Virus record (IMG/VR): IMGVR_UViG_3300002835_001051
Location: 1 to 24,373 of that record
Source: a virus
DNA length: 24,373 bases
Strand: one strand, 5' to 3'
Part shown: in pieces, positions 9,699 through 23,776 of the stretch
Numbering within the stretch: the stretch's first letter is position 1
Layout: every line of letters begins with the position of its first letter
Notes under the pieces: model-generated
Told to the model about the DNA's origin: nothing
Databases searched by the model: none
Seen by the model: the letters and a program-made list of their open reading frames with translations, nothing else
Program-made: the position numbers and the translations under genes

Positions 9699-9720
9699 CT
9701 TATGTTTTAGATTTTAGATT

Positions 9721-10018: not shown

Positions 10019-10061
10019 TTTTATTTCCTCCTCATTAGATACAACAGTTTTTATTTAGGAT

Positions 10062-10782: not shown

Positions 10783-10809
10783 TTTTATTTCCTCTCTCTT
10801 TACAATTTT

Positions 10810-10833
10810 AGATTATCGGCAACCACCGACATT
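10810..10833 (-). promoter_or_regulatory. Box-B promoter i
   Basis: AATGTCGGTGGT then TGCCGATAATCT. TA at positions 19-20 begins TAATCT. No -35 of the TTGACA type is present. Confidence 0.6.
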
Positions 10834-10838
10834 TAGAT

Positions 10839-11006: not shown

Positions 11007-11029
11007 TTGTTTTCCTCTCTTTCATTTTT

Positions 11030-11053
11030 AGACTATCGGCAACCACCGACATT
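11030..11053 (-). promoter_or_regulatory. Box-B promoter j
   Basis: Identical to site i over 20 bases, except TAGTCT in place of TAATCT. Confidence 0.6.
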
Positions 11054-11058
11054 TGAAT

Positions 11059-11196
11059 CTAAGCGAACTTGAAAACCTTTTTGAACACACCAAAGAACTT
11101 CTCTCGAACTTCCTCTGCCTTCTTGTCGCGAGCAACCTTCGCCTCGTAAAGAGCCTTACGCTCGGCTATTGCCTCTGCTGAAAACCAATCTGCCAT
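11059..11196 (-). CDS. Small charged helical protein (45 aa)
   Basis: Not recognised. MADWFSAEAIAERKALYEAK, then VARDKKAEEVREKFFGVFKK. One amphipathic basic helix. GGAGGAGG ribosome site, strong promoter 23 bases upstream of the start. Confidence 0.7.
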   Translation of the reverse strand: MADWFSAEAIAERKALYEAKVARDKKAEEVREKFFGVFKKVFKFA

Positions 11197-11218
11197 CTCA
11201 ATCACCTCCTCCACTTAT

Positions 11219-11247
11219 AGTATTACAGTTTTAGGGTGATTTGTCAA
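11219..11247 (-). promoter_or_regulatory. Promoter for 11059-11196
   Basis: TTGACA (11242-11247), 17 bp, AATACT (11219-11224). Confidence 0.75.
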
Positions 11248-11306
11248 GAGGAAAACACTATTTATTACAAAATCTTTTTTCGGCAAAAGTCTCGGCAAAG
11301 CCAAAA

Positions 11307-11332
11307 ACAAGGGGTGCTACTTTTTTCACCCC
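11307..11332 (-). repeat. Boundary element A9
   Basis: ACAAGGGGTGCTAC then TTTTTTCACCCC on the plus strand. Confidence 0.7.
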
Positions 11333-11369
11333 ACCAAACGAACTTTCTGCCCTCCCAGCATAAGAAAAA

Positions 11370-11389
11370 AGCCGAGATTTCTCTCGGCT
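11370..11389 (-). terminator. Rho-independent terminator
   Basis: AGCCGAGA-GAAA-TCTCGGCT followed by TTTTTT on the minus strand. Confidence 0.85.
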
Positions 11390-11406
11390 CTGACTGCTTG
11401 GGTTCT

Positions 11407-11574
11407 TTACAAACTTGCGAGGCTCACTACTGCGACAAAGACTTCGCTTGGCTTTACCTTGCGACCTCCAGCCTTCTTTTGAAATCTCGACAAAGCCTTT
11501 TGCCTTGCTTGCTCGGAACTTTCAGCCATAATCTCTACTTGGCGATTCCTGTAAAAGCACAGATACTTATTCAT
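11407..11574 (-). CDS. Small conserved phage-type protein (55 aa)
   Basis: MNKYLCFYRNRQVEIMAESS, then EQARQKALSRFQKKAGGRKV, then FVAVVSLASL. This is the beta-alpha-beta plan of short proteins seen in many unrelated phages, role unknown. Start at 11574 with GAAGGGAG 5 bases upstream. Confidence 0.75.
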   Translation of the reverse strand: MNKYLCFYRNRQVEIMAESSEQARQKALSRFQKKAGGRKVKPSEVFVAVVSLASL

Positions 11575-11593
11575 TGGAACTCCCTTCACTATT

Positions 11594-11617
11594 AGACTAT
11601 CGGCAACCTCTGACATT
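11594..11617 (-). promoter_or_regulatory. Box-B promoter k
   Basis: AATGTCAGAGGT then TGCCGATAGTCT. The same downstream half as j, with the AGA variant of the box. Confidence 0.6.
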
Positions 11618-11683
11618 TAGCCCAGCCCAGCCCAGTCCAGCACTATCTTACGGAACAAAAACGAAAGCCCCAACAGAAATGTC

Positions 11684-11708
11684 GGGGTGAAAAAGGGGCT
11701 ACCCCTGT
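11684..11708 (+). repeat. Boundary element A10
   Basis: GGGGTGAAAAAGGGGCT then ACCCCTGT. Starts a few bases past the terminator at 11717. Confidence 0.7.
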
Positions 11709-11715
11709 AAAAAAA

Positions 11716-11892
11716 TCAAGCCCAATCTTTCAGGGCTTGAAGTTTTTTGGATTGGCGAGTTCGGATTCGCTTTTCTCTTTTATCTGCGTGTGTTCCATTA
11801 GCACCCGAACGATTACGCTCACGCATAAGAATCGCAAGTTTGAGAGATTCTAAATCTCGCCTCGCTTTATTTGCTCTGTCTAGTTTTCGCAT
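11716..11892 (-). CDS. Small basic protein (58 aa)
   Basis: MRKLDRANKARRDLESLKLA, then ILMRERNRSGANGTHADKRE, then KRIRTRQSKKLQALKDWA. Extremely Arg/Lys-rich, so nucleic-acid binding is plausible. AGGAGG ribosome site. The last eight codons form the stem of the terminator hairpin. Confidence 0.75.
   Translation of the reverse strand: MRKLDRANKARRDLESLKLAILMRERNRSGANGTHADKREKRIRTRQSKKLQALKDWA
11717..11739. terminator. Terminator inside the gene end, bidirectional
   Basis: CAAGCCC / GGGCTTG, 9-base loop. ATTTTTTT follows on the minus strand (overlapping the TGA stop) and AAGTTTTTT on the plus strand. Confidence 0.75.
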
Positions 11893-11944
11893 TTTTTATT
11901 TCCTCCTAGTTCTATTGTATCACAACTATCAGACATAATGGGAA

Positions 11945-11983
11945 ACCCTACCGAATTTTCGTGAGGGAATTTTTCGGTAGGGT
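11945..11983. terminator. Long hairpin, weak T run
   Basis: Perfect 11-bp arms ACCCTACCGAA / TTCGGTAGGGT around 17 bases. Confidence 0.6.
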
Positions 11984-11990
11984 CTCGGTG

Positions 11991-12027
11991 GGTGGCTAGG
12001 AGAATTGAGAGGCAAGAACTAGCCACC
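11991..12027. repeat. Second hairpin after 12038-12361
   Basis: GGTGGCTAG / CTAGCCACC arms of 9 bp with a 19-base loop, directly beside the previous hairpin. No T run. Confidence 0.55.
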
Positions 12028-12037
12028 ACTTTTATCT

Positions 12038-12361
12038 CTACTTTACAGCCGAGATAAAGTCGTAAGGATTGCTGTATGAGACCTCGGCAAAGACTTCTGG
12101 GAACGAATCCTTCAAAACATCTCGCTTTATGTCTGTGCGATTTCGGTGAGCAATCTTGAACGCTGGAACGCCTCCAATTGTTGCTACCTCGTGAACGCCT
12201 AACTTTGCTCGCAAGATAACTTCGGCACTAGCCTTCTGTTCCTTGGCAATCTTTTCGGCATTACTAGCCTCGACAAAATCTGCCAATGCTTTTCGTGTCT
12301 CTTTGTCGAATCCAACTTCAACGCTAGTTCCGAACTCTGTTGGGGTGATAGTCTTTGACAT
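12038..12361 (-). CDS. Hypothetical protein, paralogue of 9069-9362 (107 aa)
   Basis: Start MSKTITPTEFGTSVEVGFDK at 12361 with AAAGAGG 7 bases upstream; the longer frame would run through the leader hairpin. Full-length similarity to the 97-aa protein at 9069-9362, with ten extra N-terminal residues. Each copy has its own promoter and follows a multi-element regulatory stretch, which suggests the two are used at different times or levels. Confidence 0.8.
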   Translation of the reverse strand: MSKTITPTEFGTSVEVGFDKETRKALADFVEASNAEKIAKEQKASAEVILRAKLGVHEVATIGGVPAFKIAHRNRTDIKRDVLKDSFPEVFAEVSYSNPYDFISAVK

Positions 12362-12389
12362 CTCACTACCTCTTTCTTTTTGTCGTTTC

Positions 12390-12406
12390 GTGGCAACTCC
12401 TGCCAC
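12390..12406 (-). other. 5' leader hairpin
   Basis: GTGGCA-GGAGT-TGCCAC, exact 6-bp stem, about 7 bases after the -10. Confidence 0.5.
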
Positions 12407-12412
12407 TCTTTT

Positions 12413-12441
12413 AGGATACCAAACTTGGCAACTGGTGTCAA
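12413..12441 (-). promoter_or_regulatory. Promoter for 12038-12361
   Basis: TTGACA (12436-12441), 17 bp, TATCCT (12413-12418). Confidence 0.75.
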
Positions 12442-12459
12442 GTCTATTCGCAACTTTTT

Positions 12460-12756
12460 TTAGTAAAGTTCCGAAAGTTTTTTGTTCCCGAAATGAAGGT
12501 CTCGTTCGACTTTCATACCAAAAGGTCCAGAGAGGGATTCCAATTCACTTAGATAGAAATACCCAAGTTCTTTTTCAAATCCATCTACAAGCCCAAAGAA
12601 CTCGTCTTTGCCATCAAATTCTGTGGCATACCAAGTCCAGTTAGCCCAAGGGGTGAAAAACTTTACAACTACCTCGGCATCTAGACCTACTGATTCGCCT
12701 GAACCAATCGGCTTAGTCTCGAATTTCTTTTGAATCTCTTTTGTCATTAGTTTCAT
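12460..12756 (-). CDS. DUF2958-type protein (98 aa)
   Basis: The sequence KLMTKEIQKKFETKPIGS ... VKFFTPWANWTWYATEFDGK ... FFGLVDGFEKELGYFYLSEL ... GMKVERDLHF matches the DUF2958 family, found in phages, plasmids and mobile elements and of unknown function. Signatures are the FTPWxxWTWYATE core and the ELGYFxLxELE block. Start at 12756 with GGAGGAG. Length is normal for the family. Confidence 0.85.
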   Translation of the reverse strand: MKLMTKEIQKKFETKPIGSGESVGLDAEVVVKFFTPWANWTWYATEFDGKDEFFGLVDGFEKELGYFYLSELESLSGPFGMKVERDLHFGNKKLSELY

Positions 12757-12775
12757 TTTTATCTCCTCCACTTCT

Positions 12776-12804
12776 ATTGAACCACAATCCCAATCAAAAG
12801 TCAA
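12776..12804 (-). promoter_or_regulatory. Promoter for the DUF2958 gene
   Basis: TTGACT (12799-12804), 17 bp, TTCAAT (12776-12781). Confidence 0.65.
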
Positions 12805-12831
12805 GCGTGTCGGCAACTTTTTTTATTCGGA

Positions 12832-12857
12832 ACAAGGGGTAGTGGTTTTTTCACCCG
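12832..12857 (-). repeat. Boundary element A11
   Basis: ACAAGGGGTAGTGG then TTTTTTCACCCG on the plus strand, 27 bp upstream of the next -35. Confidence 0.7.
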
Positions 12858-12893
12858 ACCTTTTCGGAAAAAAAATCTGCGATATAAAAAAAA

Positions 12894-12920
12894 ACGAAGG
12901 CTGAATTTCTCAACCTTCGT
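12894..12920 (-). terminator. Rho-independent terminator
   Basis: ACGAAGGTTGA / TCAGCCTTCGT stem, 5-base loop, nine T on the minus strand. Confidence 0.85.
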
Positions 12921-12924
12921 TCTC

Positions 12925-12948
12925 CGTGTCGGTGGCTTATGCTATAAA
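12925..12948 (+). promoter_or_regulatory. Box-B promoter-like site e
   Basis: Variant box TGTCGGTGGC, TG at 16-17, TATAAA as -10. The -10 lies within the final codons of the leftward gene. Confidence 0.45.
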
Positions 12949-13299
12949 GTCAAAATCTTTTTCATCTACAAACACAATCTCCAACTTCACAACTCTCTCG
13001 CCCCAATCGCCTAAGTCGGCATAGGTGGCATAAACAGGATAGTATCCGTCTCCTAGTCCAGCACTAGATACCACACCAGCCCCAGCGTGTCCAGCGACAA
13101 AGTTCAGTTGCCCTGCTCGTTCCTCCGTAAGCGTTGTAGCACAAGCCCCCGACCAAGAATAATCTCCCTTGCCTGTATCGCCCATCTTGTTCTGTTTCCA
13201 ATCGGCAAAATAACTTGGGTCGGTAATTAGAATCTGTCCAGAATCAACAGCACAATAGCCGATTATTTTTTTCCGTGTTTTAGTTTTTGTTTCTGACAT
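12937..13299 (-). CDS. DUF4241-like hypothetical protein (120 aa)
   Basis: The blocks GYCAVDSGQILITDPSYF, YSWSGACATTL and FVAGHAGAGVVSSAGLGDGY, then YPVYATYADLGDWGERVVKL, resemble a small bacterial and phage family annotated as DUF4241-like; function unknown. Start ATG overlaps the upstream stop. Last gene of a transcript begun at 13889. Confidence 0.7.
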   Translation of the reverse strand: MSETKTKTRKKIIGYCAVDSGQILITDPSYFADWKQNKMGDTGKGDYSWSGACATTLTEERAGQLNFVAGHAGAGVVSSAGLGDGYYPVYATYADLGDWGERVVKLEIVFVDEKDFDFIA

Positions 13300-13553
13300 T
13301 AGACACCAGCCCTTTCATAACCTTTGTCTGTTTTTTTATACACTTGCTCAATCACAAACGCCTTCGCAAGTTCGGCACTAGGAAAATCTTTTCGTTGCTC
13401 TTGATAGGTATACTCTGGCAAGTTTTCTCGACCCCAGCGAACGATTACTGAATCGCCTCTGCGAGAGATTGTGTATTTCTTTTTGTAGCCGAACCTGCCT
13501 CGTTGTCCATCAGACCTAGCGACCAGCACCACTCTTTCGATAAAGTCGTTCAA
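13299..13553 (-). CDS. Single WGR-type domain protein (84 aa, TTG start)
   Basis: After ten basic residues the fold is a WGR domain: KKYTISRRGDSVIVRWGREN, a gap, DFPSAELAKAFVIEQVYKK, then KGYERAG. The VxxRWGR strand and the final KGY are the family hallmarks. WGR domains bind nucleic acid or partners in PARPs and in bacterial proteins, where they are usually fused to other domains; here it stands alone. TTG start with AGGTG upstream, directly abutting the previous stop. Confidence 0.75.
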   Translation of the reverse strand: MNDFIERVVLVARSDGQRGRFGYKKKYTISRRGDSVIVRWGRENLPEYTYQEQRKDFPSAELAKAFVIEQVYKKTDKGYERAGV

Positions 13554-13889
13554 CTAAATCACCTGCCCATCTATGAATCTGTGTGCTTGGTCGGCAAAAA
13601 CGCTTGGGTCATTTCGGAAACCAAGTTTTTCGTTTTCGTCATTTGACATCTCAAACTCAAAGCACGCACTAAGAACAGCGACACGAGCAAACGCTAACGA
13701 GAGACTTCCGAAATACTCGTTCCACTCATTAGCAATGTAGTCAATCCACTTCACTCGGTAGACACTCTCTTTATCGGCATTTACAAAAGTGTCTATTGTG
13801 ATTTGACACTCACGCCCTAAGTCAAAAGTGATTGGCTCTGATAGTAGTTGAACCTTTACTGGCTCTGTGTGAACTCCTATGTTTTCCAT
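13554..13889 (-). CDS. Hypothetical protein (111 aa)
   Basis: Not recognised. MENIGVHTEPVKVQLLSEPI, beta-rich (CQITIDTFVNADKESVYRVK), then helical (LSLAFARVAVLSACFEFEMS). Start at 13889 with AAAGGAG. First gene of a three-gene operon with the WGR and DUF4241-like genes. Confidence 0.8.
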   Translation of the reverse strand: MENIGVHTEPVKVQLLSEPITFDLGRECQITIDTFVNADKESVYRVKWIDYIANEWNEYFGSLSLAFARVAVLSACFEFEMSNDENEKLGFRNDPSVFADQAHRFIDGQVI

Positions 13890-13921
13890 TTTGTCTCCTT
13901 TCAAAAGACCCTTACATTTTT

Positions 13922-13945
13922 ATTCTATTGGTAGCCTCTGACATC
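13922..13945 (-). promoter_or_regulatory. Box-B promoter l
   Basis: GATGTCAGAGGC then TACCAATAGAAT: TA at 19-20 begins TAGAAT. Weaker box, better -10. Confidence 0.5.
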
Positions 13946-14615
13946 AAGCGTAAATCGGAAAGTTTACGGAGAGGTCTGTTTCAGCCTCGCCCCAAATCAT
14001 TTCACCATTTTTACGGAACACAGCACCAGCCTTTTTCCACATCTCGTTTGAGATTGGAACACAAGAATCATTTAGAATCTCGCCCTTATCAACTTCAAAA
14101 GTTCCAATGAAATCCATACCCTCCTCGTAGTAGTTGTTCACAACACGAACGCCATACTTTTCGGATAGTGTGTTCCAGAATTGGCACGCTGGAGACCAAG
14201 CAGTATTGAATCCAATTTTGAAAACAAATTCGTCTCCAGATTGCTCGACCTCGCCAAGATAAACTTCATCTTGTCCTATGTCCCACTTAGTTCCCCAATG
14301 GGCTAAGTGCCAGTCGTAGAGGTTGTCGTAGGCATAAGTCAAGTTGCCAGCAATAGCGTTAGCAAAACTTTCAGCGTGGTCTTTGTTATCCTCGCCAGCC
14401 TTGTAGACCTTGCTAAAAGGTATGTCGCTTGGTGCTGGAACTAGAGACTGGAACGAAAATTTGTTTGGGTGTTCTGTGAACGAATCGTATTCGCCCTTCT
14501 CTCGATTCCAATCAGAATAAGTTTTGTGTGTTCCTTGTCTGCCATCAGACAGGATTTTTTCTAGGGTCTCTTTGTTTCCATAGACCTCAACATCATTAGT
14601 CGCCCAGTTTGGCAT
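13944..14615 (-). CDS. Api92-like (DUF1281-type) protein (223 aa)
   Basis: Starts MPNWATNDVEVYGNKETLEK, as phage Api92-like proteins do (PNWCxNxxxxxG). Conserved blocks follow: FSFQSLVPAPSDIPF, YDWHLAHWGTKWDIG near residue 100, FNTAWSPACQFWNTLSEKYG and EEGMDFIGTFEVD. The family has a ferredoxin-like fold and unknown function, and is spread among phages and plasmids. Single gene with its own TTGACT/GACAAT promoter. Confidence 0.85.
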   Translation of the reverse strand: MPNWATNDVEVYGNKETLEKILSDGRQGTHKTYSDWNREKGEYDSFTEHPNKFSFQSLVPAPSDIPFSKVYKAGEDNKDHAESFANAIAGNLTYAYDNLYDWHLAHWGTKWDIGQDEVYLGEVEQSGDEFVFKIGFNTAWSPACQFWNTLSEKYGVRVVNNYYEEGMDFIGTFEVDKGEILNDSCVPISNEMWKKAGAVFRKNGEMIWGEAETDLSVNFPIYA

Positions 14616-14657
14616 TGGCAGTTCCTTTCGTAGTTGTTATTTTTTCCTTACATCTCT

Positions 14658-14686
14658 ATTGTCGCAGGTTAGTATCCAAAAGTCAA
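14658..14686 (-). promoter_or_regulatory. Promoter for the Api92-like gene
   Basis: TTGACT (14681-14686), 17 bp, GACAAT (14658-14663). Confidence 0.7.
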
Positions 14687-14724
14687 GTTCATTTATAGAA
14701 CTTTTTTCTGTGTCAAGTTTTGGT

Positions 14725-14748
14725 ATCTTAGCACGCACCTATGACATT
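14725..14748 (-). promoter_or_regulatory. Box-B promoter-like site m
   Basis: AATGTCATAGGT, TG at 16-17, TAAGAT. A possible second promoter for the Api92-like gene. Confidence 0.5.
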
Positions 14749-14758
14749 TTGGTCTGAC

Positions 14759-14772
14759 ACATAAGGCTTATG
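14759..14772. repeat. Palindrome, copy 2
   Basis: ACATAAGGCTTATG, same as at 9526 except for the last base. Again between a minus-strand box-B site and a boundary element. Confidence 0.6.
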
Positions 14773-14797
14773 CCACAGCCAAAAACGATAAAAAGTC

Positions 14798-14823
14798 GGG
14801 GTGAAAAAAGGCGGCCCCCTTGT
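14798..14823 (+). repeat. Boundary element A12
   Basis: GGGGTGAAAAAAGGCGG then CCCCCTTGT. Confidence 0.7.
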
Positions 14824-14840
14824 AATTTGGATAAAAAAAA

Positions 14841-14862
14841 TCCACGAGCCTAAACTCGTGAA
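14841..14862 (-). terminator. Rho-independent terminator
   Basis: CACGAG-TTTAGG-CTCGTG followed by GATTTTTTTT on the minus strand. Confidence 0.85.
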
Positions 14863-14885
14863 TTCTTTTGTGATTTAGTTATCAC

Positions 14886-15305
14886 TTACCAACTGCCAAC
14901 AGTTTCCCTACTTATGTCTGTGTAAGGTTCGCCACCTAAAGTTTTCTCCTCCAACTTGTAAGTTATTGGGAACACTTTGGTAAACGCCTCTCGAACAAGT
15001 CCAGAGATGTCCAACCAGTTTTGAGATTCACCATAAAGTTTTGAGGCATCACCTTCGTAGCCTTGAATCTCTTGTGTGTAATCACCTAAGACCACAACTC
15101 TATCTCCACACCAGCGACCAGAAACAACAGTCCCAGGCCAATCACCACCACCACTATTCGGTGAACTCATTACGAGCAAATAAATAGCATCGGCTAGACT
15201 TCCCTCGATTCCAGTATGCTCATACTGCTTGCTGAACAATCCGATACCGTGAGGGTCTACGACCTCTTGCTTATCTAGATTTACTAACTTGTGATACTGA
15301 CCCAT
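14886..15305 (-). CDS. Conserved phage hypothetical protein (139 aa)
   Basis: MGQYHKLVNLDKQEVVDPHG is the signature opening of a protein found in many large and actinobacterial phages. Later blocks are NSGGGDWPG and SGRWCGDRVVVLGDYTQEIQ, with DISGLVREAF near the end. Function unknown. Own promoter 15364-15392 and a leader with a small CCGA/TCGG hairpin. Confidence 0.8.
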   Translation of the reverse strand: MGQYHKLVNLDKQEVVDPHGIGLFSKQYEHTGIEGSLADAIYLLVMSSPNSGGGDWPGTVVSGRWCGDRVVVLGDYTQEIQGYEGDASKLYGESQNWLDISGLVREAFTKVFPITYKLEEKTLGGEPYTDISRETVGSW

Positions 15306-15363
15306 CCGTTTATTTCCTTCCGTCTCTTATCGCTTGCCGACTTTATTATCGGTTCACATTTCT

Positions 15364-15392
15364 AGGGTATCGTATCGGCTCACTTTACGCAA
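15364..15392 (-). promoter_or_regulatory. Promoter for 14886-15305
   Basis: TTGCGT (15387-15392), 17 bp, TACCCT (15364-15369). Confidence 0.55.
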
Positions 15393-15408
15393 GCCGACAC
15401 GAATCCGT

Positions 15409-17421
15409 TTATCCGTTTCGCTTGCCGACCTTCTCAAGAGCAGTCGCTGATGCTTGACCGATAATGGTCGCAATCTCGCTTGCCGACTGTTCCGTTGTGG
15501 CACAAACCAATTGAGCATCCGTTCCCTCAAGATAACCACGAGCCGAACCTCCGTTGTCGAATGTCAGCCATAGAACAGCGACACCGTTATCGTGGCACTT
15601 GCGAATGAAGTCTCTGACCTCACCACGAATCTCGTGCCGATAGTATCCGTCAGATACAACCACCATCAGTCTCGCACCCTTGCCATACATTAGGTCGAGA
15701 GAACCGTCAAGAGCCTTGAACGCCTCAACAGCCTCCTCCGTTCCATCCTGTGCCGAGTAGACCTTGACATCCTCCAAGTGTTGCCCAGCCTTCAATGTCG
15801 GGAAAACTGAATTGCCGAAGTAGACCATCGCAGTCTTTGCTTGAACCCTACGACCAGCCTCGGATAGAACCCAAGCAGTAGTCGCCATCGGATTCATAGC
15901 ACCACCCATCGAACCTGAAATGTCCACAGCAACACCAATGGTAAGAGTTGGCTCGTCAGTCATTCTACGAATTGTTCTCGACCAAGCATCAACTGGAGTG
16001 TGAACGCCACGAGCCTTTTGTGCTTGACCCTGAACTAACGCACGAGTTCTTAGGCGACCCGGAGGCAGAACTGAATTGACCTCAATCACATCACGCTCAC
16101 GATACTTTGCTTTTTCCAAAGCCTTCGCAACACGAACAGCAGAGATACGCTCGTCAGAAGTTGGCTTACGAGTTTCAATCAAACGAGAGTTAGTTCCAGA
16201 ATCATCACCTGGTCCACTTGTCTTTGAGAAAACTTTTTGAGCAATCTTTTCGCTAGTGGATTTATCCTTCGCTCTAGATTCTCTTTGCTCGGTAGCCTCT
16301 TTCCAATCCTCTTGAGTAAGAGCATCATCTAAGTCAGACTGATTCGAAACATCAACATTGTCTTTAGATTCGTTCAGAGCATCTTGAATCATCTGCTCAA
16401 GTGGGGATAGAGATTCACCTTCACCTTCTGATTCAGATTCACCTTCACCAGATTCTGGTTTACCAGTTTCTGATTCACCTTCACCTTCTGATTCAGATTC
16501 ACCTTCACCTTCACCAGATTCTGGTTCTGATTCAGATTCATCCTCGCCAGTTGGAGATGGAGTTGGAGTTGGAGTTGGAGAACTTCCACCAGTTGGAGTT
16601 GGAGTGCCACTACCAGATGGAGATGGATAGCCACAAATAATCGGAGGGAATTCTCCTTGAGGCTCACCCTTTTCGATTGAGGTCTCGTCAAGAATCTTTA
16701 CCCACTTTTCGGCAAGAGCATAAAGTTCAGTTGCGTTGTTGTGAATGTCGTGTGCTTGGAACTGAATCCAAACCTCACGCAACTTAGCAAGAACCTCGAC
16801 ACCTAAAATGCCTTCAAGAATTGGAATGACTGGTTCAATGTCGCTCTGCTTTAGAACGCCAGCATCAACACGAGCAAGTGTCAAAGCAGCCAAGAGACCA
16901 GCACCACGAACATTCGCAATTTTGGAAATGTGATTCTCAAGGTCTCCAATTACAATTCCCATCGCACAAGCACGAAGTAGAACTTGTCGTTCAGGTGAAG
17001 TGCGAACACCAAACGCCTCGATGCGACCCTCCTCCAAATTGTGGAGTGCTTGATACACATCAGGAGTTAGAGCCTTATACGCATCCTCCAAAGACCAGCG
17101 AGTGAAACGAGCGTGGAGTGCCTCGTGGAAAATCGCACCAGCACCCTTAGCGTATTCAAGTTGAGTTCTACGCTTGGTAATGTCTCCAATGTCTCCAGCA
17201 GAAACGCCAGCACCAAAGGCAACCTTTGTGTTGATTTCAATCTCGGCAGTAGCAGGATTGAAAAGAGCAGGGGCAGGGGCAGAAGTTTCCTCACCCAAAT
17301 TTACAACTAGGTCAGTTCGGAACGACCAGTCATTTACTAACCTACCCACATCAGCACCAAAGCGTAGCCATTCGTGGGGAGTTGTTTTACGCATCTCTAG
17401 CGTAGTAGCGAAGTGAGCCAT
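15409..17421 (-). CDS. CobT-like VWA-domain protein with HExxH motif (670 aa)
   Basis: N-terminal part (1-260) contains HEALH at residues 99-103 in GAIFHEALHARFT, a zinc-metallopeptidase-like motif. Residues about 268-345 are low complexity: a Pro-Thr stretch, then Glu-Ser-Gly repeats. The C-terminal von Willebrand A domain carries the MIDAS residues D500, S502 and S504 (VAVDISGSMGG) and a later VVVSDGYY. This matches the CobT-like partners of MoxR/CobS-type AAA ATPases, which act with the ATPase to remodel or metallate a target. The AAA gene lies just upstream. There are no cobalamin genes here, so the target is unknown. The acidic linker suggests a flexible or metal-binding tether. Confidence 0.85.
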   Translation of the reverse strand: MAHFATTLEMRKTTPHEWLRFGADVGRLVNDWSFRTDLVVNLGEETSAPAPALFNPATAEIEINTKVAFGAGVSAGDIGDITKRRTQLEYAKGAGAIFHEALHARFTRWSLEDAYKALTPDVYQALHNLEEGRIEAFGVRTSPERQVLLRACAMGIVIGDLENHISKIANVRGAGLLAALTLARVDAGVLKQSDIEPVIPILEGILGVEVLAKLREVWIQFQAHDIHNNATELYALAEKWVKILDETSIEKGEPQGEFPPIICGYPSPSGSGTPTPTGGSSPTPTPTPSPTGEDESESEPESGEGEGESESEGEGESETGKPESGEGESESEGEGESLSPLEQMIQDALNESKDNVDVSNQSDLDDALTQEDWKEATEQRESRAKDKSTSEKIAQKVFSKTSGPGDDSGTNSRLIETRKPTSDERISAVRVAKALEKAKYRERDVIEVNSVLPPGRLRTRALVQGQAQKARGVHTPVDAWSRTIRRMTDEPTLTIGVAVDISGSMGGAMNPMATTAWVLSEAGRRVQAKTAMVYFGNSVFPTLKAGQHLEDVKVYSAQDGTEEAVEAFKALDGSLDLMYGKGARLMVVVSDGYYRHEIRGEVRDFIRKCHDNGVAVLWLTFDNGGSARGYLEGTDAQLVCATTEQSASEIATIIGQASATALEKVGKRNG
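16410..16625. repeat. Imperfect coding repeats in the VWA gene
   Basis: Tandem TTCACC/GATTCA-type units encode the Glu-Ser-Gly tract, and TTGGAG-type units encode the Pro-Thr tract. Likely length-variable. Confidence 0.6.
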
Positions 17422-17462
17422 CTGGCACCACCAACCTTTCTAATAAAATCTCTTACATTTCA

Positions 17463-17491
17463 ATTGTCGCACAAACGATTTAGTTTGTCAA
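17463..17491 (-). promoter_or_regulatory. Promoter for the VWA gene
   Basis: TTGACA (17486-17491), 17 bp, GACAAT (17463-17468). Confidence 0.8.
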
Positions 17492-17499
17492 GTTTAGTT

Positions 17500-17566
17500 G
17501 AGGGGAACGAGGAAATAAATTTCGACCCATTCCCCTCGACCAGAACCTAGTCTGGAAGGAGACTAG
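17500..17566. terminator. Two hairpins after the AAA gene, no T run
   Basis: CTAGTCT / AGACTAG (6-base loop) contains the TAG stop. GAGGGGAA / TTCCCCTC (22-base loop) follows. Confidence 0.5.
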
Positions 17567-18558
17567 ATTTTGGCTGGTTGAACGACCTCGCCAAAGATTC
17601 GTGAGAATACATCGGCAACCACAGGTCGGTCAAGTTCAGGGGCAGAGGCAATCAAGTTTGAGATTGCCCACGAAGTCCCATAGTTTTCGGCAAGGAGTTT
17701 GAATGTCAAAACTTCTCGCATCTGTGGAGACCACGAGACCTCACCAGAAACATACTTCTTGGCGAGATTCTGGCTCGCAGTAATCACAGGCACAGGAACA
17801 CCCAACTTCTTTGCGATTGTCCAGTCAGTTCCCATTTCAGATTGAATTCCGAAACGAGACAATAGAGCCTCTGACAATCTCACACCCGGAGCATTAGGGT
17901 TCGTAGCAGAGACCACATAGAATCCCTCTTGAACTTTTACGACACCACGCTCTGGATTCTGTGTGATACGAAGTTCACCACGACCATCCATCAGACCATA
18001 GACCACAGAAAGAACTTTAGGGTCAATCAATCCAATTTCGTCAATCAGCAAAACTTTACCTTGCTCGATTGCTTGAACAAGTGGACCATCAATCCATTCG
18101 AATCCACCACTTGGAGTTTGAATGTAGCCACCAACAAAGTCGGCAACTTCTGTATCTCCAGTTCCAATGATGGTAAGCAAATCATCACCGAAGGCTGCCT
18201 CAAGCAACGCAGTTTTACCAGTTCCCGGAGGTCCATAGAGCAACGCATACTGCTTGAGAATTCTACCCTTGCGTAGAACTTCAATGTCAGCGTGTTCACC
18301 CCAACCTCGGCTAGTGTAAGTCTCACCATTAGGTCGAACATAAATGTTCTCACCAGTCATTGGTTCAGCATTGACCACGCCACGCACCTTCTTTTCGGTA
18401 GTCGCACCACGAGTTCGGATTACAGCACGACCTGAATCCTCGTGATAGAAACGATTTAGTTTGTCGGCATAATGTCCATTGACTGCTTGACCAAAGACAC
18501 CTCGAAGGGCATCTGGTAAGTCAGCGTGGAATCCAACTGTTGTATTTATTTCACTCAT
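17563..18558 (-). CDS. MoxR/CobS-type AAA+ ATPase (331 aa)
   Basis: Walker A GPPGTGKT at residues 109-116, Walker B VLLIDE at 169-174, sensor 1 in SATNPN at 217-222, and an Arg-finger-like ALLSRF at 231-236. The order and the GDTEVADFVGGYIQ stretch after Walker A place it with MoxR/CobS ATPases, which work as hexamers with VWA partners. Its N-terminal 100 residues have no clear domain. AAGGAGA ribosome site. It is 16 bases after 18575-19063, probably on the same transcript. The partner VWA gene follows after a separate promoter, so the ratio of the two can be set independently. Confidence 0.9.
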   Translation of the reverse strand: MSEINTTVGFHADLPDALRGVFGQAVNGHYADKLNRFYHEDSGRAVIRTRGATTEKKVRGVVNAEPMTGENIYVRPNGETYTSRGWGEHADIEVLRKGRILKQYALLYGPPGTGKTALLEAAFGDDLLTIIGTGDTEVADFVGGYIQTPSGGFEWIDGPLVQAIEQGKVLLIDEIGLIDPKVLSVVYGLMDGRGELRITQNPERGVVKVQEGFYVVSATNPNAPGVRLSEALLSRFGIQSEMGTDWTIAKKLGVPVPVITASQNLAKKYVSGEVSWSPQMREVLTFKLLAENYGTSWAISNLIASAPELDRPVVADVFSRIFGEVVQPAKI

Positions 18559-18574
18559 AAGTTTAGTCTCCTTC

Positions 18575-19063
18575 CTAGACTGCTACTTCATTGAATAGTG
18601 ATTCAGACCACGAAACTGCTTTTCGAGAACGCTCGATTCTGCGATAAAGTTGATTCGGAGTTTTACCACTTTGGATGGCACTCAAATCCTCGTATGAGAA
18701 TTCAACTACCAATGGTCGCTCGTAGAGTTTCCAATCTTGAACGAGCAAATTGTTGAACTGACTTTTGATGTATCCATAAATGTTTTCGGCATAATTTTCA
18801 ACGCCAACCTCAACTGGATTACTTTCAAAAGCACCATAGGCATCACGAGACGGAACTGTCGCACGAGACAATTTGTCAATCTGCCAATTTCTGCGTGGAT
18901 GCCAGATGGACACCCTCCTTCGCATAAACGCTGGACTGACAATTTCATTCTCGAACGAAATTGCGTGAGGCGTGATAATCACTTGGTATGTGTATTGGTC
19001 TTTTCTGAATTCAAGGTAAAGTGCTTTACCAACTGAATCCTTCTTTGTTTTCGCAGTAGTCAT
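18575..19063 (-). CDS. Hypothetical protein (162 aa)
   Basis: Not recognised. Start MTTAKTKKDSVGKALYLEFR at 19063 with GGAAGGGG upstream. Beta-rich first half with many Arg and Trp (AFMRRRVSIWHPRRNWQIDK), then ENYAENIYGYIKSQFNNLL and a basic end (QLYRRIERSRKAVSWSES). Encoded just ahead of the AAA ATPase, so it could be an adaptor or substrate of that system. Confidence 0.8.
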   Translation of the reverse strand: MTTAKTKKDSVGKALYLEFRKDQYTYQVIITPHAISFENEIVSPAFMRRRVSIWHPRRNWQIDKLSRATVPSRDAYGAFESNPVEVGVENYAENIYGYIKSQFNNLLVQDWKLYERPLVVEFSYEDLSAIQSGKTPNQLYRRIERSRKAVSWSESLFNEVAV

Positions 19064-19102
19064 TTTGACCCCTTCCATTTCTGCTATCTTTTCCATACTT
19101 CT

Positions 19103-19131
19103 AGTATTACACAGGTTGAACCTAATGTCAA
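19103..19131 (-). promoter_or_regulatory. Promoter for the 18575 / AAA transcript
   Basis: TTGACA (19126-19131), 17 bp, AATACT (19103-19108). Confidence 0.75.
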
Positions 19132-19150
19132 GTTCATTCGCAAAGAATCT

Positions 19151-19609
19151 TTAGTCAATTCTCGATTCGTATCGAGCAGAGATACCTTCAGAGCGAAGGT
19201 AATTTGCGACCTTATTACAGACCTGCTCTTTGAGTTGTAGCGACTGACGAGTTTCAGCGAACCCTTCTCGTGAGTGTAGCCAGATGGAAACACCCTTGTA
19301 GCCACCTCCCCATTGGTAATGCTTAGAGCCATAGCCCTTCTTTATCAGCCATTGAGCAAATCCAGTTCGACCAGAATCAAGCACGACCCACGCAAAGCCA
19401 CAAACGCCATCAGCAACATACCAAGTTTTCTTGGTGAGGTCTACATCGCTACCAAGTGGAGTAGATGGCGACCCAACAATCATTGGAGTTGGAGGGGTGG
19501 CACTAGCCAGAGCCTCGTGAGAGACGCGTTTCATTTCATCCCAGAGACGCTGATACTTCGCCTCGTTCGCTGGACTGGTGGACTTCTTAGACTTCGAAAT
19601 TGTTTTCAT
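19151..19609 (-). CDS. Hypothetical protein (152 aa)
   Basis: Not recognised. Start MKTISKSKKSTSPANEAKYQ at 19609 with AAGGAG. A basic start and linker (ATPPTPMIVGSPSTPLGSDV) lead to a folded part with aromatic and glycine motifs (WYVADGVCGFAWVVLDSGRT; KHYQWGGGYKGVSIWLHSR). The end is helical (KEQVCNKVANYLRSEG). The frame extends to 19699 but runs across the promoter. Confidence 0.8.
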   Translation of the reverse strand: MKTISKSKKSTSPANEAKYQRLWDEMKRVSHEALASATPPTPMIVGSPSTPLGSDVDLTKKTWYVADGVCGFAWVVLDSGRTGFAQWLIKKGYGSKHYQWGGGYKGVSIWLHSREGFAETRQSLQLKEQVCNKVANYLRSEGISARYESRID

Positions 19610-19627
19610 TTTATCTCCTTCACTTCT

Positions 19628-19656
19628 ATTGTCGCAGTTTAGGAGGCTAATGTCAA
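19628..19656 (-). promoter_or_regulatory. Promoter for 19151-19609
   Basis: TTGACA (19651-19656), 17 bp, GACAAT (19628-19633). Confidence 0.8.
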
Positions 19657-19695
19657 GTCCATTATAGAAAAAGTTTTTAGCGTGTCGAAGGCTAA

Positions 19696-19721
19696 ACAAG
19701 GGGTAGGTAGTTTTTCACCCC
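19696..19721 (-). repeat. Boundary element A13
   Basis: ACAAGGGGTAGGTAG then TTTTTCACCCC on the plus strand, 39 bp upstream of the next -35. Confidence 0.7.
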
Positions 19722-19730
19722 AGATTTACA

Positions 19731-19964
19731 TCAGAGAATAGGAGACGCACATTCGAAACAAACAACCCATTCAGCCTCATCATCTAAGGCGAGAACAAAG
19801 GGGGCGAACTTCTTGCTTACTGGACTTTCACCAACTTGCTGGAAACATTCCTCGCAGGTTTCAGCGTTATCAACTTTGAAACCAATCTGGTTAGCAGTAA
19901 CGACATCCTTGCTGGACTCGATTGTGTGAAGTTCTATGTGTCTCATAGGTTTATCATAAAACAT
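19731..19964 (-). CDS. Small Cys-pair protein (77 aa)
   Basis: CEEC near residue 37 and CFEC near residue 71 suggest a zinc ribbon (NAETCEECFQQVG; EAEWVVCFECASPIL). Two in-frame starts are possible, at 19964 and 19946; the first abuts GAGG closely. It is the rightmost gene of the palindrome-poor left block. Confidence 0.7.
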   Translation of the reverse strand: MFYDKPMRHIELHTIESSKDVVTANQIGFKVDNAETCEECFQQVGESPVSKKFAPFVLALDDEAEWVVCFECASPIL

Positions 19965-19999
19965 CCTCAGAAGGGTGATTTACGCAACCGTTGAGTCGG

Positions 20000-20248
20000 T
20001 CACTCCTCTATAGACAGACCAAGGTTCGACGCTCTCCAAACGCTCGGAGAGTGGTTCTCCTCGACCATCCGTTTGACGTCCGTCGACTCGTACAGACGTA
20101 CCACATTGATGCAAGGGTCACCCGTCTCGAATTCCTCGTCTTCGCTTGCCGATGTTGGCAAGCCGTCATGCGTATAGCACACTGGCACGCCGACCCATCC
20201 GTTTTCGTATCCGATGGCTAGCCACTCGTCAAAAGTCATATCCGTCAA
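20000..20248 (-). CDS. Conserved actinophage-type hypothetical (82 aa)
   Basis: MTFDEWLAIGYENGWVGVPV, then CYTHDGLPTSASEDEEFETG, then INVVRLYES and NHSPSVWRASN. The blocks PxCxTHDGLP and HSPSVWR recall small proteins common in actinobacterial phages; function unknown. Two starts are possible (residue 1 or 4). It is the first gene of the right block: ACGT and GTAC words first appear here. Confidence 0.75.
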   Translation of the reverse strand: MTDMTFDEWLAIGYENGWVGVPVCYTHDGLPTSASEDEEFETGDPCINVVRLYESTDVKRMVEENHSPSVWRASNLGLSIEE

Positions 20249-20338
20249 TCCGTTCTGGCTCGTATCCCGAGCCGTTGTTGTTTTTCACTCTACACCCAAG
20301 CCGTTGAATTTCGCAAGGCGGTTTGTGAGTCATCCGTC

Positions 20339-20362
20339 TGTAACGCAAGCCGTTACGTTACA
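20339..20362. repeat. Dyad repeat, copy 1
   Basis: TGTAACG / CGTTACA arms (7 bp, exact) around CAAGCCGTTA. The best-formed of the set. Confidence 0.65.
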
Positions 20363-20397
20363 AAACTTGAACCCCCCGCTTCAGGTCCCGTGCCGTT

Positions 20398-20420
20398 TGT
20401 AACTTAAGCCGTTATGCTCA
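20398..20420. repeat. Dyad repeat, copy 2
   Basis: TGTAACTTAAGCCGTTATG; right arm degraded. Confidence 0.55.
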
Positions 20421-20444
20421 GCCGGGATGGAAGCCTGGCTCATC

Positions 20445-20466
20445 TATAACACAAGCCGTTATGTAA
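20445..20466. repeat. Dyad repeat, copy 3
   Basis: TATAACACAAGCCGTTATG then TAA; ATAAC / GTTAT arms around seven bases. Confidence 0.6.
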
Positions 20467-20523
20467 GAATCGGGATACCTCGGCCAAGATTAATTTCAGA
20501 AGACTGCCGCTCGGTCTTCTCGC

Positions 20524-20549
20524 TGTAACACACAAGCCGTTATGTAATA
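20524..20549. repeat. Dyad repeat, copy 4
   Basis: TGTAACACACAAGCCGTTAT then GTAAT; two bases longer in the left half. Confidence 0.55.
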
Positions 20550-20587
20550 ACCGTGGAGCGTCGGCCGTCTTCAGCCGTCCAAAAAAC

Positions 20588-20612
20588 GGGGTGAAAAAAG
20601 CGGCGGCCCTTG
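20588..20612 (+). repeat. Boundary element A14
   Basis: GGGGTGAAAAAAGCGGC then GGCCCTTGT. The only copy in the right block, with a weaker CCC arm. Confidence 0.6.
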
Positions 20613-20628
20613 TAATCTCTGGCCGTTG

Positions 20629-20652
20629 AATGTCAGTGGTTTGTGGTATGTA
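20629..20652 (+). promoter_or_regulatory. Box-B promoter-like site f
   Basis: AATGTCAGTGGT, TG at 16-17, TATGTA. It ends at the stop codon of the leftward lysin candidate and points into it. Confidence 0.45.
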
Positions 20653-21417
20653 TTACTGCTTCGCAGTGAAGAGGTTCGTCATCTCTCCGAGAATCTGAAG
20701 CGACTCAAAGTCGACGTCGCCAGTTGCTCTGGACTGGGCGTAGCCCAGAGTTCTTTGGAAACGAGCGTAAGCGTATTTGGTCTTCGGGTCAAAGTGACCA
20801 CGCTCCAAATACTTAGCGTCGACGACCATGCTTAATGCAAGTTGCACACGCTCCACGAATTTGTTCTTCGAACCTGCACGCAACTGACCAACGTTGATAA
20901 CGGGCACCGTTGAGTCTGTGGACTTCACTACCTTACCCGTTGGGTTGAACGGGCGTCCAAACCCAAGGACCTCGTAACTAAAACGCATCCGTTGGTATAC
21001 CCCGTTGTTCCCATTCGCTTGCCGTTGAATTGGACTGGCCGTCATACCTTCAACGGTCTCGACCAGACCATCCGTCTCCCAACGCGAGCCGTCAATAACA
21101 ATACCCACATGTGGCACGCCGTAATCCGATACCGTCGACGTTTCGAAGAACACGATGTCACCCCGTTGCGGTTTATTGTATAACCGTCCGTGTTTAAGAA
21201 AGGTGCTCAGTGCAACGGGCGTCTGTGACATAACGGGCAATCGCAAGCCGACTTCACGGGCCACAACGTCAATGAACATACCGTCCCAAGGCAAGCCGTT
21301 TGTTCCCAATCGCTCGCCGAAGATATTGTCTCGGCCTTCTCGGGCCACGTACCCGTTGTAACTTAAGGCTTGTGTTACAAACCTGTCGACCTTAGCCGTC
21401 GGCTTTCGGAATATCAT
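20653..21417 (-). CDS. CHAP-like lysin candidate without cysteine, with peptidoglycan-binding-like end (254 aa)
   Basis: Residues 40-115 follow the CHAP/NlpC plan: LPWDGMFIDVVAREVGL where CHAP enzymes usually read xWCAxFVxxVxxxAG, then KPQRGDIVFFETS, then VPHVGIVID with the usual His at 103. The catalytic Cys position is Asp-Gly, and the protein has no Cys at all. Residues about 168-248 (NKFVERVQLALSMV ... RGHFDPKTKYAYARFQRTLG ... ATGDVDFESLQILG) look like a PG_binding_1 repeat. Either catalysis uses another residue or the protein is a binding/structural relative. It sits right after the small terminase, and its start overlaps the upstream 63-aa gene. Confidence 0.75.
   Translation of the reverse strand: MIFRKPTAKVDRFVTQALSYNGYVAREGRDNIFGERLGTNGLPWDGMFIDVVAREVGLRLPVMSQTPVALSTFLKHGRLYNKPQRGDIVFFETSTVSDYGVPHVGIVIDGSRWETDGLVETVEGMTASPIQRQANGNNGVYQRMRFSYEVLGFGRPFNPTGKVVKSTDSTVPVINVGQLRAGSKNKFVERVQLALSMVVDAKYLERGHFDPKTKYAYARFQRTLGYAQSRATGDVDFESLQILGEMTNLFTAKQ
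21356..21377. repeat. Dyad-repeat relative inside the lysin candidate gene
   Basis: GTAAC / GTTAC arms around TTAAGGCTTGT; the reverse complement resembles the non-coding dyad repeats at 20.3-20.5 kb. It lies in coding sequence near the gene start. Confidence 0.4.
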
Positions 21418-21583
21418 TTGTCTCTTCCGTTAAAGATTGGAGTTCGTGGAGAAGATTAACCGCTTCGTTTGCACGTGCCGTTAATCGTATGTGTTCAAGT
21501 CTAGTCGACGCAAGCCGAACGTCATCGTGGAGTTGCTCGGCTAGAGATGCTGCCATCTCAATTATATCATTAAGGGCTGACAT
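21392..21583 (-). CDS. Helical hypothetical protein (63 aa)
   Basis: MSALNDIIEMAASLAEQLHD, then RLASTRLEHIRLTARANEAV, then LLHELQSLTEETNDIP. Almost wholly helical, probably a coiled coil. Start overlaps the end of the terminase gene (ATGTCAGCCCTTAA) and its end overlaps the lysin candidate start, so the three are coupled. Confidence 0.75.
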   Translation of the reverse strand: MSALNDIIEMAASLAEQLHDDVRLASTRLEHIRLTARANEAVNLLHELQSLTEETNDIPKADG

Positions 21584-22496
21584 CTTCGACTACCTCTTCT
21601 GCGTCAACAATGTCTTCGCTCTTGTTTTCATTAAGTATAGCCGTCCGTCTCTCTTCTTCCCTGTTCGAAGCGTCGATGGCGTTTTGGGCAATCCGTTGCA
21701 AACGTTCGGCAATGATGGAAGCGGCAGGGCGTACGTCAAGAGTGACGTCCGTGTTTATATCAAAACCAGCACGCACGCCAGCACGGTCAAGAATCTCGGT
21801 CGCCGCTTTCAACTTAACGGGTTCGCTCTCAGCGGAATCCATTAATTGTTCCAGAGTGTCAACAGCCGTCGGTGCTGCTTGGGTTAATCTGGCTCGGGCA
21901 CGTTCTACTGAGTCGGTCGGTTTATTACGTAAGGACCCTAAGTGAACTCGGCAGAAGCCGTCATCTTGTGGACGTCCGCCAGTCCATAACTGGCAACGTA
22001 CGCCGTCATCCTTGATGGCCTTGCAACGGGCAGGAAGGGGTAGACGTTTTTTAGGTTCGAGGCCAGTGGCGTCAATTTCGTTGGACTGTTTGGCCCACGC
22101 CTTCGTTGCCCCTAGTACCCAAGGGGGAACGACGACGTCGCTTGCAGATTCTGCAAGAAGGTCGTAGCCTGTTAGGTAGTCGGAGTTCTTCGACGCAGGG
22201 TTAGATAGGATTGCTTGCTTTTCGGTAATAGATAGCAAACGTTGTTGAGTTTGCATCTCGGCTGAAAGGGCTTGGATGAGACCCGTCGGAACTCCGTTTA
22301 CTGCATAGACAGGAAGCCAGTTAAGTTTGGCTCGACGTAGGGCCTGACGATTTTCAAACGTATCTTCACAGATACCGAGGTCGGTTTCTTCGATGCCGTA
22401 ATCTGATAGATTTGGACGTAGGTTAATTGGGGTATCGATTTGGATATCGGGAGCCTCGAGTTCAGGCTTAGCGAAGAGAGGGTCTATGTCTGTCAT
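21570..22496 (-). CDS. Small terminase-like protein with Cys/His finger (308 aa)
   Basis: Start MTDIDPLFAKPELEAPDIQI at 22496 with AAGGA 8 bases upstream; a longer frame to 22577 lacks a ribosome site. C158, C168, C182 and H185 (PARCKAIKDDGVRCQ ... GFCRVHLG) form the Cx9Cx13CxxH finger typical of actinophage small terminases. The block QLMDSAESEPVKLKAATEIL, then DRAGVRAGFD is also typical of that family. It probably recognises DNA for packaging. The C-terminus is acidic (EDIVDAEEVVEDVSP), which could contact the large subunit. No large subunit is visible in the window. Confidence 0.75.
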   Translation of the reverse strand: MTDIDPLFAKPELEAPDIQIDTPINLRPNLSDYGIEETDLGICEDTFENRQALRRAKLNWLPVYAVNGVPTGLIQALSAEMQTQQRLLSITEKQAILSNPASKNSDYLTGYDLLAESASDVVVPPWVLGATKAWAKQSNEIDATGLEPKKRLPLPARCKAIKDDGVRCQLWTGGRPQDDGFCRVHLGSLRNKPTDSVERARARLTQAAPTAVDTLEQLMDSAESEPVKLKAATEILDRAGVRAGFDINTDVTLDVRPAASIIAERLQRIAQNAIDASNREEERRTAILNENKSEDIVDAEEVVEDVSP

Positions 22497-22604
22497 CGTC
22501 CACGTCCTTAAGTTAGTGAGCCAGACGAGGAGGCTGGGGAGAGACTGCTCCTCGCCTGACCCGAACTGTGCAACCATTTGTTGCTGTTTTAGGTGTCTCT
22601 TCCA

Positions 22605-22778: not shown

Positions 22779-23144
22779 TTACTTCTTTTTTGGTGCTGTT
22801 TTCTTTGGAGTAGTTGGTTTACTTTTCTCCACTAGAAGTTTGTTTTCTTTAGATACTTTTGCTGGGTGACGCATCCTGCTACCGTTTTCGCATGGACACA
22901 TTCCGTCTCCACCACACTTGCAAGTCTTATCGGACATCATAGACTTTAGGATTTGCTGAGTCCTAAAGTTGCTCTGTCTCACTGCCTCAGCAATTACTTT
23001 AGGGTCATCTGTCTTTTTAAGTATGGTTCCAGTCTCTGGGTTAATCACCCAACGACCAGAGTCGTCTCGAACGAAGGTTGCAGTCAACTTACGAACATTG
23101 CGATATTTGATGCTGTTGATTTGTTTCTTAATCCAGTTTTTCAT
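22779..23144 (-). CDS. Lys-rich hypothetical protein with Cys cluster (121 aa)
   Basis: Not recognised. Basic start (MKNWIKKQINSIKYRNVRKL), a beta hairpin (FVRDDSGRWVINPETG), a helix (PKVIAEAVRQSNFRTQQILK), a four-Cys cluster (CKCGGDGMCPC) and a tail of Lys, Pro and Thr (KPTTPKKTAPKKK). The tail and cluster suggest DNA binding. ATGA overlap with the Mom-like gene; the pair may act together. Confidence 0.75.
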   Translation of the reverse strand: MKNWIKKQINSIKYRNVRKLTATFVRDDSGRWVINPETGTILKKTDDPKVIAEAVRQSNFRTQQILKSMMSDKTCKCGGDGMCPCENGSRMRHPAKVSKENKLLVEKSKPTTPKKTAPKKK

Positions 23145-23776
23145 TCTGTCTTGTCTCCTAATTTTGGATATGGTTTTATTTCGTATTTCAATTTGGCTAG
23201 TAGTTCTTTTCTACGCCTCTTTGAAGTTGTATTAAAGAAAACATATCTATGCTTTCTTGGTCTTTCATGTCGTTGGAGTCTGTCTCCATAGAATGCTTTT
23301 GCTCCATTCACTCCTCCATGCTCATCGAACAAGTGGCGAGAGTGAGAGCCAGACTTTCCATCTAATCTCCATTCTACATGACGGTCTGACATTCCTGTGT
23401 ATTTCCAGTTTGTGGCTTGATAAACAATTCCGATATGTCCTGCACCTATTTCAGCGTAGGACACTATTATATCTTTATCTTTAGGTAGCAGTCGTAGGCT
23501 ACGACCAATCAGATACGACTCTGTGTTCTTTGGAGTCCCATCTTGAATCCACAAGCGAGTGAGTTCTAAAACTTTACTTGACTCTTCAGGACCACAAACT
23601 CCTACACACAAACTTGGTGATGCTGGCTTTCCATAGATTACGCAACCAATCATTTCCTCATTATCGAATAGGCCAAACGCAAACATCGTGCTGGCTTTAC
23701 GATGGAGGTAGTGATTTTCGACAACCATAACATTTGCAGATTTGCTGTCGATTTGTCTAATTACATAATCAATCAT
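23141..23776 (-). CDS. Mom-family DNA modification protein (211 aa)
   Basis: Matches the phage Mu Mom family (GNAT-like fold; Mom turns adenine into N6-methylcarbamoyl-adenine and so blocks many restriction enzymes). Visible blocks are NHYLHRKAS at 21-29, FAFGLFDNEEMIGCVIYGKP at 32-51, VLELTRLWIQDGTPKNTESY at 69-88, IVSYAEIGAGHIGIVYQATN at 104-123 and WKYTGMSD. The C-terminal 60 residues are very basic (RLQRHERPRKHRYV; KRRRKELLAKLKYEIK). Length is near that of Mu Mom. It sits in the block where palindromic sites are tolerated. Confidence 0.85.
   Translation of the reverse strand: MIDYVIRQIDSKSANVMVVENHYLHRKASTMFAFGLFDNEEMIGCVIYGKPASPSLCVGVCGPEESSKVLELTRLWIQDGTPKNTESYLIGRSLRLLPKDKDIIVSYAEIGAGHIGIVYQATNWKYTGMSDRHVEWRLDGKSGSHSRHLFDEHGGVNGAKAFYGDRLQRHERPRKHRYVFFNTTSKRRRKELLAKLKYEIKPYPKLGDKTE

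Follow-up and report, generated by a model that had tools for sequence, protein, structure and literature searches.

A sharply bounded island nearly free of many restriction-site-like words in the predicted long terminal repeat of uncultured phages

Why does one part of a phage genome lack short palindromes that the adjoining part carries in ordinary numbers? The question is raised by an IMG/VR viral contig of 24,373 bases (the window, meaning the whole stretch of DNA analysed), in which positions 1 to about 19,990 form a site-free compartment, or island, and the terminal ~4.4 kb make up the other side. Against the expectation of a maximal-order Markov model, window positions 1-20000 contain no ACGT (42 expected), CATG (38), GTAC (54), TGCA (67) or TTAA (74), a single ATAT at 12882 (59 expected) and three GGCC (53 expected). 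The final 4,373 bases hold 25 ACGT, 12 CATG, 9 GTAC, 23 TGCA, 23 TTAA, 14 ATAT and 14 GGCC, all near expectation. Because AGCT, GATC and GCGC are absent both left and right of the border and CCGG is scarce on both sides, there are two tiers of avoidance. AATT, CTAG, TCGA and (weakly) TATA showed no avoidance in the word counts of the window.

When the codons of the island genes were shuffled synonymously, each lost word appeared 20-71 times on average, and the lowest of 200 shuffles gave 11-56 copies, compared with the 0-1 observed. The right-hand genes matched their own synonymous shuffles, except for AGCT, GATC, GCGC and CCGG. Codon or amino-acid composition is thus ruled out as the cause of the depletion. 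Among the 136 strand-collapsed tetramers ranked, the top seven depleted words in the island were all palindromes. Further depleted words in the window or its relatives were GTNAC, GANTC, GTNNAC, GGNNCC, CTNNAG and CAN6TG, and the asymmetric or longer words CCGC, CCTC, GAAGA and GATGC were lost as well. Known Type II or IIS enzymes recognise several of these longer, asymmetric or gapped words; for ATAT, which is missing from many islands, we know of no restriction enzyme. Since the strongly depleted words are almost only palindromes or resemble restriction sites, and coding is excluded as the cause, the results argue for restriction avoidance. With composition and codons controlled, recognition words in the island fall far under expectation, as in restriction-site avoidance. 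CCGG behaved in the opposite way to the other words and was avoided less inside the island than outside in the window and in the relatives designated G010, G002 and G004 (inside versus outside, as a fraction of expectation, 0.37 versus 0.07 in the window and 1.62 versus 0.23 in G002).

The compartment and the features at its border are as follows.

1 to 19990, no strand: compartment without sites, from word counts and shuffles, belonging to the predicted long terminal repeat; the contig ends within it, and its outer edge lies beyond the window
19965 to 20079, no strand: inner border of the compartment, from the last lost-word site (ACGT, 20076-20079) and the homologous border in relatives
20000 to 20248, minus strand: unassigned 82-aa ORF, last gene on the site-containing side; several relatives have a homologue with 61-79% identity in this position
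19731 to 19964, minus strand: conserved small ORF of 77 aa, first gene within the compartment, from the ORF list and relatives

An earlier note on this DNA had put the first ACGT at 20076 with GTAC about 15 bp on, and had CATG, TGCA, TTAA and ATAT returning up to 24,373. The counts agree, with the first GTAC at 20090. Coming from the right, lost-word sites are spaced ~37 bp apart down to 20076; to the left of it, the seven lost words are absent for 4.9 kb and the six named in that note for 7.2 kb. The switch, which the note had assigned to one small gene or its edge, maps to the 3' end of the 82-aa ORF or to the 35 bp that separate it from the 77-aa ORF. The note had also argued that gradual mutation would not produce such an edge, and the edges are sharp within tens of bases, which rules out a mutational gradient. 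A chimeric assembly is ruled out as well, because relatives and L043, a near-identical independent contig of 14,875 bp from another metagenome, span the border.

The relatives of the window include the Actinomycetia phage DSL-LC01, phages of Microbacterium, Arthrobacter and Gordonia, and ~90 viral-contig loci. From these relatives and published data (PMC10611076), the host of the window phage is probably a freshwater actinobacterium (Actinomycetia). A border shared by relatives had been set beforehand as a test, and such a border was found: of 21 clusters of relatives, 20 show the loss of one or more palindromic words at the homologous position and 15 the loss of at least three, with DSL-LC01 and the cultured phage Zooman having no border. 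The depletion in the relatives begins just downstream of the terminase-small-subunit-like (TerS) and endolysin genes, homologous to the border in the window. The lost words vary from phage to phage, and words fully avoided outside an island are also avoided inside it, with CCGG as an exception. In G001, G005, G006 and G008-G011 a second, outer edge follows, +20 to +29 kb away from the AAA gene, giving an island of ~20-29 kb. Since the island is two-edged in these longer relatives, the window shows its inner edge, and the contig ends before the outer one is reached. A sliding test along the genomes found steps of at least three words only at the two island edges where the island was clear, and the weaker G002, G003 and G004 had scattered one- or two-word steps elsewhere. 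DSL-LC01 (L096-L098, whole genome, 129 kb) has no island; TTAA and ATAT are wholly absent from it and most other palindromes are normal.

All main genes of the window lie on the minus strand. To the right of the border are a glycosyltransferase-like ORF, a Mom-like gene, the TerS-like gene and the endolysin; the left side holds dozens of small ORFs together with an AAA ATPase and a VWA-domain protein.

4254 to 4820, minus strand: NlpC/P60 lipoprotein-like cell-wall hydrolase (PF00877, 1.3e-18)
15409 to 17421, minus strand: VWA-domain partner protein, CobT/CoxE-like (weak PF05762, 0.0019; synteny with the "cobalamin biosynthesis protein" gene of DSL-LC01)
17563 to 18558, minus strand: MoxR/CobS-like AAA ATPase (PF07728, E 9.7e-20; phrog_16448, 7.2e-51)
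19628 to 19656, minus strand: promoter-like TTGACA-17-GACAAT, by sequence match
19991 to 22399, minus strand: proposed packaging (TerS-loading) array, dense and strand-specific, with ~50 copies of ACGG/AACGGC running over TerS, the endolysin and noncoding DNA
20249 to 20652, minus strand: noncoding gap with four spaced TAACGGCTTGTGTTA-type repeat copies
20653 to 21417, minus strand: endolysin (phrog_9589, 4.2e-15)
21570 to 22577, minus strand: TerS-like gene; in Zooman, Pumpernickel and Racecar the homologue stands at the physical left end, as gene 1
22500 to 22600, no strand: predicted left end of the terminal repeat, a conserved CTCTCCCC hairpin region at the TerS start, placed purely by analogy from alignment with relatives and the Zooman junction
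23141 to 23776, minus strand: Mom-like DNA modification protein, outside the compartment (PF25680, 1.5e-45)

A search of the window's island with Pfam and with PHROGs (for PHROGs, the best 25 of 39 families) found no known anti-restriction gene; the island matches were RecE-like, DUF2958, WGR, HTH and NlpC/P60 only. Two similar small island ORFs, 9069-9386 and 12038-12406, are probably the two weak matches to the RecE-like exonuclease family phrog_434. The island of the window, like those of G005 and G010, includes the NlpC/P60 hydrolase, which is found just beyond the outer edge in G001, G006, G008 and G009. Most of the strongest islands belong to phages with no match to the Mom-like gene.

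The TerS-bearing region at the inner edge resembles the start of the long terminal repeat (LTR) in the cultured Microbacterium phages Zooman and Pumpernickel and Arthrobacter phage Racecar, whose exact LTRs of 17,079, 19,963 and 20,468 bp each start just ahead of a TerS-like gene and, as in the island phages, contain small genes. The LTRs of all three show no palindrome depletion. In Zooman, the same TerS/endolysin gene block opens the repeat, and a strand-specific ACCG array is present as well, with AACCGT occurring 22 times in bases 189-2448 of the repeat (0.7 expected in the first 3 kb). In the relatives of the window, a strand-specific ACGG/AACGG array runs over TerS, the endolysin and the following noncoding DNA and ends at or near the inner edge of the island. 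The TerS-like gene, endolysin and strand-specific array are found together here, at the left end of the predicted repeat, as in Zooman. The TAACGGCTTGTGTTA repeats were rejected as the end signal, since they occur at the inner border in close relatives only and the common feature is the ACGG array.

The outer edge lies within a long gap without ORFs of at least 80 codons. Seven uncultured genomes (G001-G005, G010 and G011) carry a conserved noncoding end element in single copy, with [CG]GAAAC 35 bp before the predicted cut and a conserved block after it; the window contig stops short of the expected place. CGAAAC is found exactly 35 bp before the right end of the LTR in Zooman, Pumpernickel and Racecar. 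The best gapped match of the element core in the first 100 kb of Zooman, on both strands, is the LTR end (rank 1 of 1996 windows, by a narrow 28 versus 27), and an ungapped scan of Zooman was weak, ranking that end about fifth. A gapped scan did not recover the element block at the Pumpernickel and Racecar ends, where only CGAAAC at 35 bp is common. With this 35-bp ruler from the cultured LTRs, the predicted DNA end in the uncultured genomes lies close to the first lost-word site, which is 29 bp outside it in G010 and 3 bp inside it in G011; the first sites are 31 and 11 bp inside it in G005, and 55 and 7 bp inside it in G001. These four genomes have 0-3 other lost-word sites in the preceding 3 kb. 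The edge agrees loosely with the end element in G003, a word-specific edge lies ~10 kb inside the element in G002 and G004, and the best element-like match in G006 is 464 bp from the edge. G008 has no clear end element and G009 a weak one only, at the edge. The predicted LTR of the uncultured members is placed by homology; the duplication itself is confirmed in the cultured relatives only. The clustering of contig ends at the border was dropped as evidence for an LTR, because metagenome contigs collapse terminal repeats and collapsed repeats do not break contigs there.

Promoter-like sites are distributed unevenly. The island of the window has 10 on the coding strand and none on the opposite strand, and coding-strand sites occur at 3.8 per 10 kb in islands versus 1.1 outside. 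The sigma70-like enrichment is found in most islands; G008 and G009 are without it. This enrichment fits an early expression of the island, and the small island genes with their many host-type promoters are probably the first to be expressed.

Taken together, the results make it likely that the island is the LTR minus its packaging array, the first-entering DNA of the phage, purged of sites for many restriction enzymes. The terminal repeat would consist of the packaging array followed by the island. The last-packaged right end would leave the capsid first, so that the first DNA in the cell would be the island, with no unprotected DNA ahead of it. There it would meet the host restriction enzymes before any phage product exists, and selection would strip it of recognition sequences; where this is strongest, 9-12 palindromic tetramers are gone, along with further short words. 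Products of the island may then shield the remaining genome from most, not all, of these enzymes, and the words missing genome-wide would be those that the later protection does not cover. Such partial protection would give the two tiers, with some words absent from the whole genome (AGCT, GATC and GCGC here) and others from the island only. Three parts of this account are inferred: restriction as the agent, first entry by this end, and island genes as the source of the later protection. With right-end entry, the array at the inner edge would stand where a stop signal is expected. More tentatively, entry may proceed in two stages, in which a repeat of 20-29 kb, invisible to many enzymes, enters, pauses at the array and expresses a broad anti-restriction programme that licenses the rest. 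Several findings count against the likely reading: the cultured LTR relatives without depletion, contradictory density gradients within islands, the edge mismatch in G002 and G004, the 464-bp offset in G006, the lack of a known anti-restriction gene in the window's island, the CCGG pattern, and ATAT as a word without a known enzyme.

Which end enters first was weighed separately, and the last-packaged right end is probably the one, with a slight preference over the left. Were the left end to lead, the 2.5-kb TerS/endolysin array would enter unprotected, followed by the island, and cuts in the array would be harmless by virtue of the second LTR copy. The density gradient within islands gives signals both ways: in G006, G008 and G009 avoidance is tightest beside the array, at the inner edge, and relaxes toward the outer edge, as left-first entry would have it, whereas G003, G005, G011 and L046 are relaxed at the inner edge. 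The genes are transcribed away from the array, like those in left-first T7-like entry, but the terminal 2.5 kb would then be the least protected DNA although first in, and the predicted DNA terminus coincides with the outer, not the inner, edge, with no unprotected DNA between. Entry by the left end is therefore unlikely.

Of the two origins that the earlier note had offered for the border, a recombination junction or a functional border between early and late DNA as in T5, the second is the one that the anatomy supports, with the island inside the predicted LTR and its outer edge at the predicted physical DNA end. For the first, the left part would have been imported from a phage with another restriction history. 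GC content does rise near the border, from 0.42-0.45 to 0.52, G002 and G004 carry some words more often inside the island than outside it, and patches within islands look imported (for example, TGCA over the initial 4.6 kb in G005). However, the high GC is also present in the same TerS segment of the island-less DSL-LC01, both island edges coincide with cis-elements, and no comparable steps occur elsewhere in the genomes that have islands. The border stays at the same gene boundary across diverged relatives although their word sets differ, and divergence is about equal on either side of it (protein identity between the window and G010 is 86% for AAA and 82% for TerS). This conservation largely refutes recombination, which we consider highly improbable. 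A boundary of DNA modification seems just as implausible. Here, phage DNA modification would cover all but the terminal repeat, the repeat would have to lack sites, and the order of entry would be irrelevant. A Mom-like gene adjoins TerS in the window and in five relatives (G002, G003, G004, G010 and G011), yet within the sequence covered no match to the window's Mom protein was found in G001 and G005-G009, and G001 and G006-G009 are among the strongest islands. We also know of no mechanism by which 20-29 kb of replicated DNA would escape modification and have its edges at the packaging sites, which counts against this reading.

If the reading of the island as first-entering, purged DNA is true, the entry order, the physical genome ends and the host restriction range would become readable from the sequence of unculturable phages; the island alone would show which DNA enters first, and the word list of each island would be a record of the restriction systems of its hosts. 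Because the rest of the genome, exposed when island products would already be present, tolerates words that the island excludes, the 20-29 kb of the island would also be a short list for new anti-restriction genes. Avoidance of Type II sites has been described by Rusinov et al. 2018 (PMC6286503); it is genome-wide there and compartmental with sharp edges here, and we found no local or positional analysis of avoidance in that study. In the literature searched, of which the coverage was partial, no site-free island with several lost words and sharp bounds was found described. The leading regions of conjugative plasmids, which are enriched in anti-defence genes (PMC11602122), are first-entering DNA specialised against host defence, as the island would be, but their route is single-stranded and their specialisation is in gene content, not in site removal.

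The closest known system is phage T5, which, like the island phages as interpreted here, has a long terminal repeat in which early genes of small size occur and a repeat-rich element lies close to one end (T5 record AY543070). In the annotation of that record, the terminal repeat is the first-step-transfer DNA, which enters first, and an injection stop signal lies near its inner end; stepwise transfer is established in T5 and would apply to the island phages by inference. The pre-early region of a T5-like phage is reported to be without EcoRI sites (PMC13250531), and T5 restriction resistance has been ascribed to protection functions of the DNA injected early, although avoidance of sites has been put forward too (PMC8594841). 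The T5 repeat differs in being only mildly depleted, with just GTAC (14 of 31 expected), AGCT (25 of 58) and CTAG (29 of 46) clearly low and 15 common six-base sites together at 11 versus 26 expected. In the island phages, as many as 12 words disappear together, the genes are different and the repeat has 2-3 times the length. What was an old single-enzyme observation in T5 is extended here to a whole family, in quantitative form and with edges that are sharp on a scale of tens of bases. GCGC and CGCG are strongly enriched in the T5 terminal repeat (L158 1-10219), at 55 versus 8.5 and 29 versus 6.8 expected from the rest of the genome, respectively.
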